A stretch of 55,587 bases of DNA from Erysipelotrichaceae bacterium (GTDB lineage Bacteria; Bacillota_I; Bacilli_A; RFN20; CAG-449): positions 1 through 55,587 of the forward strand of contig SVBD01000011.1 in assembly GCA_015059045.1 (NCBI GenBank). Direction: 5' to 3'. Below, piece by piece: positions 4,648 through 35,768 of the stretch. Under the pieces are notes generated by a model, which was not told where the DNA came from, ran no database searches, and worked only from the letters and a program-made list of their open reading frames with translations. A program made the translations under genes and the position numbers. How positions within the stretch are numbered: the stretch's first letter is position 1; each line of letters opens with the position of its first letter.

Positions 4648-4684
4648 TAAAATCAAAAGAAAACCACGAGATATTCCTCGTGGT
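4648..4684 (-). terminator. Intrinsic terminator of the ABC exporter operon
   Basis: Perfect 8-base stem ACCACGAG (4663-4670) / CTCGTGGT (4677-4684) with a 6-base loop, followed on the minus strand by a T-rich stretch. It starts 6 bases after the stop codon of the upstream ABC gene. Confidence 0.85.
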
Positions 4685-9775: not shown

Positions 9776-9805
9776 ATTATAAACTATTATAATTAATAAT
9801 GACAA
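9776..9805 (-). promoter_or_regulatory. Possible sigma-A promoter of the ABC exporter operon
   Basis: Minus-strand TTGTCA (9800-9805), 18-base spacer and TATAAT (9776-9781), about 32 bases before the ATPase start. It overlaps the -10 half of the ECF-like element, so the operon may have tandem promoters or only one of the two. Confidence 0.45.
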
Positions 9806-9827
9806 TTATATATCATAAAAAGGTGCA
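9801..9827 (-). promoter_or_regulatory. ECF-like promoter element (copy 1)
   Basis: Minus-strand TGCACC (9822-9827), then 17 bases, then TGTC (9801-9804). The stretch matches the region upstream of the ECF sigma gene (35709-35735) in spacing, in the TTTTT after TGCACC and in TATAATTGTC. The spacing resembles ECF promoters such as TGAAAC-N16-CGTC of Bacillus SigM. Assignment to the local sigma factor is inference. Confidence 0.55.
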
Positions 9828-9849
9828 AAAAAAAGACCTGTTGGTCTTT
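9827..9849 (-). terminator. Intrinsic terminator of the secA-to-esterase operon
   Basis: AAAGACC (9832-9838) / GGTCTTT (9843-9849) with a 4-base loop, running into eight T on the minus strand (9827-9834). It ends the long secA-prfB-yitT-ctpB-uvrB-esterase unit. Confidence 0.85.
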
Positions 9850-32586: not shown

Positions 32587-33138
32587 TTATTTAAAGTAAC
32601 GATCTAATAAAGCCACTAGAGCTTTACCATGACGAGCTTCATCTCTAGCCATTTCGTGAACTGAATCATGAATTGCATCTAAGCCTAATTGTTTAGCTCT
32701 TGTTGCAATATCCATTTTACCATGGCAAGCACCATTTTCACCTTGTAACATTTTTTCAATATTTGCTTTTGTTGAATCTGTTACTAATTCGCCTAACATT
32801 TCTTGGAATCTAGCAGCGTGTTCTGCTTCTTCTTTTGCAATTTGTTCTAAAACTAAAGCAACTTCAGGATAACCTTCTCTTAATGCTTGTCTAGCCATTG
32901 CCATATACATACCTACTTCGCTACATTCACCTTGGAAATGAGTTCTTAATCCTTCAAGAATAAATGGATCTACACCTTTAGCAACACCAATTACGTGTTC
33001 TGCAGGCCATGTCATTTCTTCTTCTACATATGGAGATAAGAATTTTTCTCCTTTTGCTTTACAAACTGGACAAACTAATTCTTCACCTTCTGGAATTTCA
33101 ACTACTTGTCCACATACTTTACAACGATATTTTGCCAT
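32587..33138 (-). CDS. Reverse rubrerythrin (rubredoxin domain first)
   Basis: 183 residues. A rubredoxin-like iron site (YRCKVCG and CPVCKAKG) comes first, followed by a ferritin-like four-helix domain with the di-iron ligands GECSEVGMY, KEEAEHAARF and DEARHGKAL. In rubrerythrins the order is usually the other way round; 'reverse' forms occur in anaerobes such as Clostridium, where they act as NADH-linked peroxidase and oxidase scavenging H2O2 and O2. It follows the Fur-family gene by 36 bases and is probably co-transcribed. The organism is therefore likely an anaerobe with peroxide defence. Confidence 0.92.
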   Translation of the reverse strand: MAKYRCKVCGQVVEIPEGEELVCPVCKAKGEKFLSPYVEEEMTWPAEHVIGVAKGVDPFILEGLRTHFQGECSEVGMYMAMARQALREGYPEVALVLEQIAKEEAEHAARFQEMLGELVTDSTKANIEKMLQGENGACHGKMDIATRAKQLGLDAIHDSVHEMARDEARHGKALVALLDRYFK

Positions 33139-33174
33139 ATTTTTCCTCCTATATTATCTTATATGTTTATTATC

Positions 33175-33516
33175 TTATTTGTAATGAATTACTAAATTAT
33201 ATGAAACGATACCTTTATCAACTAAACTTCTTACTAAAGTATCTAATTCCTCAGAAAAGACATCTTCTATTTCTCCGGTTATATCATTAACTTTATGAGC
33301 GTGTAAGATTACATTTTTATCAAAGATACATCTAGATTCACTTATATCAATTTTATTAATTAAACCTTCATTAGCTAGTTGAGTTAAATTTCTATAAACT
33401 GTACTTAATGAGATTGACGGAACTTCTTTTCTTGCTTCAAAGAATATTTCTTCTGCCGTCATATGCTTGCACGAAGATCTAATAATAGAAAGAATTGCAG
33501 TCTTTTGTTTAGTCAT
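33175..33516 (-). CDS. Fur-family regulator (PerR-like) without CxxC
   Basis: 113 residues from ATG 33516, behind AAAGGAGAAG; the longer in-frame version lacks a ribosome site and covers the operator. A winged-helix domain (KQKTAILSII, LSTVYRNLTQLANEG) is followed by a shortened dimer domain. The region that in Fur and PerR reads HxH...CxxC is LHAHKVNDITGEIED: two His are kept but the structural-zinc cysteines are missing. Together with the downstream rubrerythrin, a peroxide-sensing PerR role is likely. It probably represses itself through the palindrome at 33537-33551. Confidence 0.85.
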   Translation of the reverse strand: MTKQKTAILSIIRSSCKHMTAEEIFFEARKEVPSISLSTVYRNLTQLANEGLINKIDISESRCIFDKNVILHAHKVNDITGEIEDVFSEELDTLVRSLVDKGIVSYNLVIHYK

Positions 33517-33536
33517 AAATCTTCTCCTTTCATTTT

Positions 33537-33551
33537 TAGGAATGATTCCTA
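33537..33551. promoter_or_regulatory. Perfect 7-1-7 palindromic operator
   Basis: TAGGAAT-G-ATTCCTA. It sits at the expected transcription start of the promoter at 33557-33585. The 7-1-7 architecture is that of PerR, Fur and Zur boxes (PerR: TTATAATNATTATAA), but the bases differ. Best read as the autoregulatory site of the adjacent Fur-family gene. Confidence 0.7.
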
Positions 33552-33556
33552 TTCTT

Positions 33557-33585
33557 ATTTTATAGATAACATTATTTATAGTCAA
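33557..33585 (-). promoter_or_regulatory. Sigma-A promoter of the fur-rubrerythrin operon
   Basis: Minus-strand TTGACT (33580-33585), 17-base spacer, TAAAAT (33557-33562), with the palindromic operator directly downstream. Confidence 0.75.
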
Positions 33586-33610
33586 CAACTTTTTTTATTT
33601 TTTTGTAAAA

Positions 33611-33636
33611 AGAAAAAGTGTGCATTAAGCACACTT
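33611..33636 (-). terminator. Intrinsic terminator after the sigma-vWA operon
   Basis: AAGTGTGC (33616-33623) / GCACACTT (33629-33636), 5-base loop, overlapping the vWA stop codon and followed by a T-rich minus-strand tract. Confidence 0.8.
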
Positions 33637-35164
33637 AATTTCCTATTGGAGTAGGAGCAATATCTTGGCCGGTAATAAATTCGATAGTTAATCTAACAAT
33701 CATATCGTTTAAATATTCGACCACTGTATCTGAAGGAGTAGTAATTCCAATATGTCCTCCACCAATTCCAGAATCATCAGTTAGAGAAGTATAGGTTCCA
33801 CCTGTTAATAGACTTCCTTCTCTTGCAATATATTCCCCAATTTTATTTAATCCGCTTGAAGCAACTGGGATATATCTAATACCTTTAGAAGATAATTTAT
33901 AATATTCTTCATATACAGTATTGAAATCTTTATCGTGACTTGGCGCATCAAAGAAGTGATAGACAAGTTTAGTAGAATCTTCTCTCCAAGATAATCTGTT
34001 AACTTCTTTTAATCCATCTTGAATAGCTTCTTCATAGTCTCCTCCACCTGCAACTCTTTGAGCTTCTAAATTTATTAATACCTTATTAATATCATTATCA
34101 AAATCAAAGACCTTTGTTACATACACATCACTTTGGTCTCTATAGAAGCAAAGACCAACATTAATAGAATAAGAAGAATCATATTCACTAATTGTATCAA
34201 TAATACTTACTAGTTCTTGTTTAATGTAAGTTAATTCATCGCCCATAGATCCAGTAGTGTCAACAAAGAAAACGATATCTACATTTTTCGATTCTACTCT
34301 TTCTACATCTACTTTAAATTCATAAGAATTATTTTCGTTTATTTCACTTACATTAAACCAATATTCTTGTTCTTCATATTGGATTTTTACATCAAAACCC
34401 TCATATTCTTCTAAATTATGATATAGATAACTAACACCTTTTGCATTACTTACAGCTTCATAAATTAATGTTTGGTTTGAATATAAAGAAACATCTGCAA
34501 GAGGTAATGGGTTATTGTTTTTATCTTTTAAAACAACGTCAATCTTATTCGTAGTTAACGCATAATTTGTCTTTTCATAATTATGAACCATTAAAGAAAT
34601 TTGCTTAAAATCTAAGATTTGTTGTTGTGATTCATCATAAGCTTCGCCATTAACTAAATCTATCCAATATGAGTAATTATCAAAATCACTATACTCTGTT
34701 GCAGTTAATGTTTTCTTATATTGCTCTTGATTGTTTGGTTTATCTGTAGGAGTTTCATCATATCCTGGTTCTTCAAGTGAAGGTTCATCATAGCCAGCTT
34801 CTCCACCTTCTAATCCGGCATCATCTCCTGGAGCCGCTTCAGTTTTTGAATCTTCTTCCCCTCCAGTTGGAGATGAAGTAGTTCCTGATCCAGGCTTAGT
34901 TGTTGTTCCTGCTAGATCATCTCCTCCTTCCATAATTGAAGGAAGTGAAGAACTCACATCTTTATTAAAACCACCACCAAGACCTCCAATTAAGATTGAT
35001 CCAGCCACTAGCACTACAGAACAAGAAGCAAGCAAAGAAACAAATAAAGGTTTATTAAATCTTCTTTTTTCTTTTACTTCAATTTTGTTTTCGATTCTAT
35101 TAAATAAATCTTTTTCTGGCATTTTCTTTTCAATAAGTGAAAATAGTTTTTTCTTATTTCTCAT
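33635..35164 (-). CDS. Membrane-tethered vWA-domain protein, partner of ECF sigma factor
   Basis: 509 residues. A basic cytoplasmic N-terminus of about 38 residues, one membrane segment (39-60), a Gly/Ser/Thr/Glu/Pro-rich linker (65-145), a beta-rich middle (about 150-290) and a vWA domain (about 294-500). The MIDAS motif DTTGSMGD starts at D302, so metal-dependent adhesion is feasible. It overlaps the upstream sigma-factor gene by 11 bases, so the two are co-translated. The position and the short inside segment suggest an anti-sigma or signal-input role, as with YfbK-type vWA proteins next to ECF sigma genes; this is inference. No zinc anti-sigma motif is present. Confidence 0.85.
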   Translation of the reverse strand: MRNKKKLFSLIEKKMPEKDLFNRIENKIEVKEKRRFNKPLFVSLLASCSVVLVAGSILIGGLGGGFNKDVSSSLPSIMEGGDDLAGTTTKPGSGTTSSPTGGEEDSKTEAAPGDDAGLEGGEAGYDEPSLEEPGYDETPTDKPNNQEQYKKTLTATEYSDFDNYSYWIDLVNGEAYDESQQQILDFKQISLMVHNYEKTNYALTTNKIDVVLKDKNNNPLPLADVSLYSNQTLIYEAVSNAKGVSYLYHNLEEYEGFDVKIQYEEQEYWFNVSEINENNSYEFKVDVERVESKNVDIVFFVDTTGSMGDELTYIKQELVSIIDTISEYDSSYSINVGLCFYRDQSDVYVTKVFDFDNDINKVLINLEAQRVAGGGDYEEAIQDGLKEVNRLSWREDSTKLVYHFFDAPSHDKDFNTVYEEYYKLSSKGIRYIPVASSGLNKIGEYIAREGSLLTGGTYTSLTDDSGIGGGHIGITTPSDTVVEYLNDMIVRLTIEFITGQDIAPTPIGN

Positions 35165-35675
35165 AATATTCTCCTAAATACGCACCCGCTTTTTTTAGTG
35201 CTCTTCGATATTTGCTTTTCAAGGTATTTATTGGTTGGTTATATTTTCTACTTAGTTCTACTAAAGATACTCCTTCTACTACGTGTTCAATAATAATATC
35301 AACACTTTCTTGATCCAAACATTTTCTTAATTCTTCCACCACATCGTTATAACTAGAATTGTGTGAAGTTATTGTATTTTCTAAAACGAATTGATCAACA
35401 TTTATTTCCCTGTCTCTTTTCTTTAAAAAATTTAAAGCTTTGTTCTTGCCAATAGTGGTTAAATAATATTTAATATTTGTAACCTTTTTTCTATTTTCAA
35501 ACAAAGAAACAAATGACTCTACTAGAATATCTTCAATATCACTAGAAGAAGTAAGATATTTTGCAAGCACAAAATAAACTAGTTTATAGTAAGCGTTATA
35601 GATATCTCTAAACACTTCACTAGCGATTTGATCATTACCATTAGTGAACTTAATTAATGTGCTTATCTTAACCAT
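35154..35675 (-). CDS. ECF-type RNA polymerase sigma factor
   Basis: 173 residues. Region 2 (about 15-90) includes EVFRDIYNAYYKLVYFVL, DIEDILVESFVSLF and the YYLTTIGKNKALNFLKKRDRE segment. Region 4 (about 116-168) reads DQESVDIIIEHVVEGVSLVELSRKYNQPINTLKSKYRRALKK. There is no region 3, as in ECF sigmas. ATG start behind AAAGGT. It is followed by and overlaps the membrane vWA gene. An ECF-like promoter lies 34 bases upstream (35709-35735), so autoregulation is likely. The signal and full regulon are unknown; the ABC exporter operon at 4691-9743 is a candidate target. Confidence 0.88.
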   Translation of the reverse strand: MVKISTLIKFTNGNDQIASEVFRDIYNAYYKLVYFVLAKYLTSSSDIEDILVESFVSLFENRKKVTNIKYYLTTIGKNKALNFLKKRDREINVDQFVLENTITSHNSSYNDVVEELRKCLDQESVDIIIEHVVEGVSLVELSRKYNQPINTLKSKYRRALKKAGAYLGEYYEK

Positions 35676-35708
35676 AAATTACCTTTTGAAAATATTTTCA
35701 CTTATTAA

Positions 35709-35735
35709 GACAATTATAAAGCACAAAAAGGTGCA
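35709..35735 (-). promoter_or_regulatory. ECF-like promoter element (copy 2)
   Basis: Minus-strand TGCACC (35730-35735), 17 bases, TGTC (35709-35712), upstream of the ECF sigma gene. Flanks TTTTT (after TGCACC) and TATAAT (before TGTC) match copy 1 at 9801-9827. No good sigma-A promoter is visible here. Confidence 0.6.
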
Positions 35736-35762
35736 AAAAAAAGATAAGTTTTTCACTTATCT
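35735..35762 (-). terminator. Intrinsic terminator after glyA
   Basis: AGATAAGT (35742-35749) / ACTTATCT (35755-35762), 5-base loop, followed by eight T on the minus strand. The T tract abuts the TGCACC of the ECF-like element. Confidence 0.85.
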
Positions 35763-35768
35763 CTTATA

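Follow-up and report, generated by a model that had tools for sequence, protein, structure and literature searches.

A two-gene ABC exporter operon and an ECF sigma factor operon in the window (the whole stretch of 55,587 nucleotides analysed here) carry the same promoter-like element, and we consider it highly likely that the ECF sigma factor is autoregulated, is co-transcribed with a vWA-domain membrane protein by which it is held, and also switches on the exporter, which is heteromeric and MacB/FtsX-like. Direct support comes from the sequence, spacing and genome-wide rarity of the element, its conservation before related sigma factor genes, the correlation between promoter and sigma factor helix, the operon layout and the domain content. 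The mechanism that we infer, including sigma binding at both sites, the anti-sigma role of the vWA protein, the release step, the signal and the exported substrate, would run as follows: i) both copies of the element would serve as promoters for a single ECF sigma factor, that encoded at 35154-35675, ii) the sigma and vWA genes would form a single operon transcribed by the sigma factor itself, giving positive feedback, iii) the short cytoplasmic segment of the vWA protein probably binds the sigma factor and keeps it at the membrane, iv) the sigma factor would be released when the outside vWA domain encounters a ligand or damage, and v) the freed sigma factor would transcribe its own operon and the two exporter genes. 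Terminators bracket both operons (Table 1).

Table 1. Features of the exporter and sigma-vWA operons, in positions of the window
Feature	Coordinates	Strand	Remarks
Terminator closing exporter operon	4663..4684	-	
ABC exporter half 2, ATPase + FtsX-type permease fusion, 922 aa	4691..7459	-	17-base overlap with half 1 at its start
ABC exporter half 1, ATPase-permease fusion, 766 aa	7443..9743	-	Orthologue only in G017 among 279 genomes
Sigma-A-like candidate TTGTCA-N18-TATAAT, 11/12	9776..9805	-	Its -35 overlaps the ECF -10; possible second exporter promoter
ECF-type promoter, exporter operon	9801..9827	-	-35 TGCACC 9827-9822, 17-base spacer, -10 TGTC 9804-9801
Terminator of upstream esterase operon	9832..9849	-	Hairpin 9849-9832; T tract enters exporter promoter -35
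Terminator closing sigma-vWA operon	33616..33636	-	
vWA membrane protein, 509 aa, probable anti-sigma	33635..35164	-	40-residue cytoplasmic segment, one TM helix, outside vWA
ECF sigma factor gene, 173 aa, region-4.2 helix NQPINTLKSKYRRA	35154..35675	-	Pfam Sigma70_r2 1.3e-10; TIGR02937
Palindrome GAAAATATTTTC	35688..35699		Between sigma promoter and start codon; also in G017 and G010
ECF-type promoter, sigma operon	35709..35735	-	-35 TGCACC 35735-35730, 17-base spacer, -10 TGTC 35712-35709
Terminator of upstream glyA	35739..35765	-	-10.7 kcal/mol, z -4.0; T tract enters sigma promoter -35

The original prediction held that the two operons share an almost identical upstream element with 17 bases between TGCACC and TGTC. 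The motif TGCACCTTTTT-N6-TATAATTGTC was found at both promoters without mismatch and occurs exactly twice in the whole genome of 1,441,741 bases; no third copy with three or fewer mismatches was detected in the window or in the whole genome. The 17-base spacing is the same in both copies and in the promoters of related sigma genes. When 43 upstream regions of the window were compared in 903 pairs, the best 27-base match was that of the exporter and sigma regions (24/27, vs. a maximum of 23/27 in 100 first-order Markov replicates), and their flanks were unrelated, the likeness ending at the element. The T8 tract ahead of GCACC in both copies, which had been partly ascribed to abutting terminators, indeed stems from the upstream terminators ending there. 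Nor did the motif prove to be scattered over many random sites: a relaxed form, TGCACC-N16-18-NGT[CA], has 21 matches in the genome, and the exporter and sigma copies are the only ones that are both intergenic and directed at a gene, the other 19 lying inside open reading frames, where GGTGCA often encodes Gly-Ala.

Further members of the regulon were sought in this genome (G000) with a relaxed consensus, which gave six places, the two copies included. Two of the six lie within genes and one is directed at a gene on the opposite strand, and these were discarded, as was a TGCAAT variant 87 bases 5' of the gene for a 351-aa membrane protein (L192), which is probably a chance match. The genome's second ECF sigma gene (L023, G000:C1:70886-71335), which is followed by the gene for an RsgI-like membrane protein, has a different upstream sequence without TGCACC.

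Both exporter halves have an N-terminal ATPase like those of MacB and LolD, and an FtsX domain was called in half 2 only; against the MacB equivalog the exporter scored 174.7 bits (cut-off 966). An orthologue of half 1 was found, among 279 genomes of the order, only in G017, which belongs to a different species of the same genus and where the exporter pair lies 3 bases behind mgtC (L088, G017:C83) on a contig that ends inside mgtC; in the window, the exporter is a two-gene operon. A search for the missing contig end of G017 with PF02308 found nothing. Since this only other exporter-bearing genome breaks off before the promoter, the exporter arm of the proposal rests on sequence identity in one genome.

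The sigma factor matches TIGR02937 over its full length (45.9 bits, above the cut-off of 42.9), while Pfam alone calls no sigma-4 region in the 173-aa protein. Its stop overlaps the start of the vWA gene by 11 bases. The cytoplasmic segment of the vWA protein comprises about 40 residues and contains FNRIENKIEV, and its outside domain was recognized by both PF25106 (6.7e-10) and PF00092 (6.4e-08), each above cut-off, with an intact MIDAS motif (DTTGS at 302 and GGGD at 373) that has the DxSxS/DxTxS pattern of the vWA fold. Judged by this layout and by comparison with established pairs such as RpoE1/TolB of T. tengcongensis, the protein is a probable anti-sigma factor. Of 160 proteins whose genes adjoin an ECF sigma gene, 57 carry ahead of the transmembrane helix a motif of the same kind as FNRIENKIEV, with the form [FYL]xx[IVL]xxx[IVLT][NDSTKEQH] followed by one hydrophobic residue (5.6 expected from shuffling), and it recurs although the outside domains vary (vWA, serpin, beta-propeller and unrecognized ones). 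Such a pre-membrane motif fits a common sigma-docking segment to which exchanged sensors are attached.

Two further observations concern the surroundings of this operon. The palindrome GAAAATATTTTC precedes sigma genes in the window, L004 and L006 (genomes G000, G017 and G010), with variants such as GAAGATATCTTC elsewhere; as a general feature before sigma genes it is weakly enriched (7 vs. 2.4 expected). Genes for a Fur/PerR-family regulator and then rubrerythrin (32587-33588) lie directly downstream of the sigma-vWA operon, from which a terminator separates them.

The promoters of related sigma factors bear on the identity of the element. The closest relative, in G017, is 48% identical, is likewise followed by a vWA membrane protein gene and has TGCACC-N17-TGTC upstream, and more distant relatives are preceded by TGCACC-N17-CGTC (G013) and TGCACC-N17-TGTA (G015). 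Region 4.2 is the part of a sigma factor that reads the -35. When 111 distinct ECF genes were collected from the order, TGCACC was found upstream of 15 of the 19 with an NxxKSxY[RHLF]R helix in this region and of none of the 92 others (p = 3e-15); after removal of redundancy the counts were 13/17 and 0/74. Other helix classes in the same sample had hexamers of their own, namely CGAC[GA] for the SS/SG class (26/28 vs. 10/83), TGAAAC for K[TS]xY[YH]R (10/11 vs. 4/100) and GTCGC[AT]TT for NKxYER (4/6 vs. 0/105). The classes had been defined after these data were viewed and were then applied unchanged to 58 held-out ECF genes from different orders within the taxonomic class, in which TGAAAC accompanied its helix in 4 of 4 genes (vs. 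4/54) and TGCACC in 1 of 1 (vs. 0/57), the latter being a single gene of this helix class, with the promoter TGCACC-N17-TGTC. The helix-to-hexamer rule predicts ECF promoters of this order from protein sequence alone.

From these sequence comparisons we strongly infer that the ECF sigma factor of the window pairs with TGCACC-N17-TGTC promoters. Positive autoregulation is likewise suggested by a motif that lies upstream of the sigma gene, is kept in relatives and correlates with region 4.2. The -10 is less uniform, being ATCT/CTCT-like rather than NGT[CA] in three families of the TGCACC class. AAC in the -35 and CGT in the -10 are a classical ECF trait, which newer definitions of ECF sigma factors no longer require (PMC8103513); the present promoters have CAC for AAC in the -35 (TGCACC) and TGTC as the -10. 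The original prediction, which read the element as an ECF promoter, thus appears largely right: the element recurs before the sigma genes of G017, G013 and G015, and its hexamer follows the region-4.2 helix in the order and in the held-out gene. Its assignment of one copy to the sigma gene and one to the exporter agrees with the intergenic, gene-directed position of both, but exclusive ECF control of the exporter is put in doubt by the overlapping sigma-A-like site. The system appears to be a very small switch of the stress type, stress itself being no more than a possible signal.

The perfect TATAAT in both copies raises the question of ordinary sigma-A promoters, with TATAAT as the -10 and TGCACC as the operator of a common repressor or activator, and the TTGTCA-N18-TATAAT sequence downstream at the exporter points in the same direction. 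We regard this as very unlikely, since on the minus strand the shared TATAAT is not preceded by a -35 hexamer at a distance of 16–18 bases, and under a repressor the hexamer would not track sigma region 4.2. Moreover, 14 of the 15 sigma promoters of the TGCACC class lose TATAAT but keep TGCACC and the spacing, so that the TATAAT previously included in the element occurs in only one of them and is common to just the two copies in the window; being unconserved and without a suitably placed -35, the shared TATAAT was rejected as a sigma-A -10. That the likeness arose by chance, from terminator T tracts at both sites and a genome rich in AT, is hardly credible. Both copies do abut T tracts and the GC content is 28.9%, but the common GCACC and TGTC are not parts of the terminators, further matches at three or fewer mismatches are expected only 0.02 times by chance in the window, and related sigma promoters in other genomes keep the element without an abutting terminator. 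Conservation, the helix-hexamer correlation and the held-out test already contradict such a coincidence.

It is less easily dismissed, yet still unlikely, that only the sigma promoter is a true autoregulatory ECF promoter and that the exporter is driven mainly by the overlapping sigma-A promoter, the ECF site adding little. The sigma-A-like candidate matches at 11 of 12 positions, the exporter has a longer leader (TGTC stands 57 bases ahead of its first start codon vs. 33 for the sigma gene), and its site is known from one genome. However, AT-rich DNA of this kind often contains sigma-A-like matches (shuffled sequence gives an expectation of 2.4), the exporter and sigma copies do not differ at any defining base, in a match unique in the genome, and a useless site would be expected to decay neutrally. 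With the ECF promoter retained as the preferred reading, the exporter may be dually driven, with basal transcription by sigma-A.

Of the 279 genomes, only G000 and G017 contain the exporter or the sigma-vWA pair, with exceptions on the vWA side: the vWA protein is also present in G016, and sigma-less lipoproteins occur in another family. G016, in which the vWA gene lies at the edge of a contig, has no such exporter, so the linkage between the two operons is not strict. The only intergenic TGCACC-N17-TGTC of G016 (L062, G016:C8:15557-15583) lies 24 bases before a gene for a 190-aa lipoprotein-like protein, suggesting that regulon targets may differ between species. The vWA-domain relatives of family f4 (L097, L098 and L099) are free lipoproteins without an adjoining ECF sigma gene.

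The ECF sigma genes L009, L107, L150, L008, L010 and L012 are each followed by a gene for a membrane protein whose outside part is a serpin domain; Pfam recognized the domain in the neighbours of L107 (1.3e-37) and L150 (3.5e-30), the others being recognized by eye. It is possible that a serpin, a protease inhibitor, serves as an anti-sigma sensor. In G015, the ECF sigma gene L005 is followed by a membrane protein gene with a Beta_propel domain (6e-57), which recalls T. tengcongensis TolB.

An autoregulated ECF sigma factor with a small regulon is a known kind of system; new here, as far as the open-licence literature shows, would be the use of a vWA domain as sensor, the specificity for TGCACC and an exporter dedicated to the system. 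In the open-licence papers searched, no description was found of a vWA or serpin domain that acts as the outside sensor for a sigma factor, and the present data point to both in that role. More tentatively, the order may possess a modular ECF system with a few exchangeable -35 specificities and membrane partners that share a docking motif and swap sensors (vWA, serpin, beta-propeller and others). In such a scheme, the form with vWA would report on a ligand or a protease event at the surface and would drive one dedicated exporter. With two promoters and four genes, the system would be a complete, minimal and testable sigma regulon in an AT-rich, probably uncultured organism.

Among known systems, clostridia possess many paralogous SigI/RsgI sigma/membrane protein pairs, in which the outside domain varies, the cytoplasmic part is kept and each pair has its own promoter (PMC4711584). 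The pairs described here resemble them in being paralogous, with a changing outside domain, a constant cytoplasmic part and private promoter sequences, but SigI is not an ECF sigma factor and its promoters are CNNAAA/CGAA. ECF promoters of Bacillus have a geometry of the TGAAAC-N16/17-CGTC type. In Bacillus SigV/RsiV, the outside part of a transmembrane anti-sigma factor binds lysozyme (PMC5014341). That system shares with ours a membrane protein (here a probable anti-sigma) with an outside receptor domain beside the sigma factor and the ECF promoter geometry, whereas ours has a vWA receptor domain, a much shorter cytoplasmic segment (about 40 residues) and another -35 hexamer. RpoE1 of Thermoanaerobacter tengcongensis is an autoregulated ECF sigma factor with the promoter tGTTAC-N16-CGTC, whose -10 marks ECF promoters, and TolB, encoded by the next gene, is its anti-sigma factor, which binds through an N-terminal segment and bears another domain (PMC3397946). 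The arrangement in the window is similar in that a probably autoregulated ECF sigma factor adjoins a probable anti-sigma factor with an extra domain; it differs in the -35 (TGCACC), the spacing of 17, the outside domain (vWA) and the presence of a second operon, that of the ABC exporter, with the same promoter.
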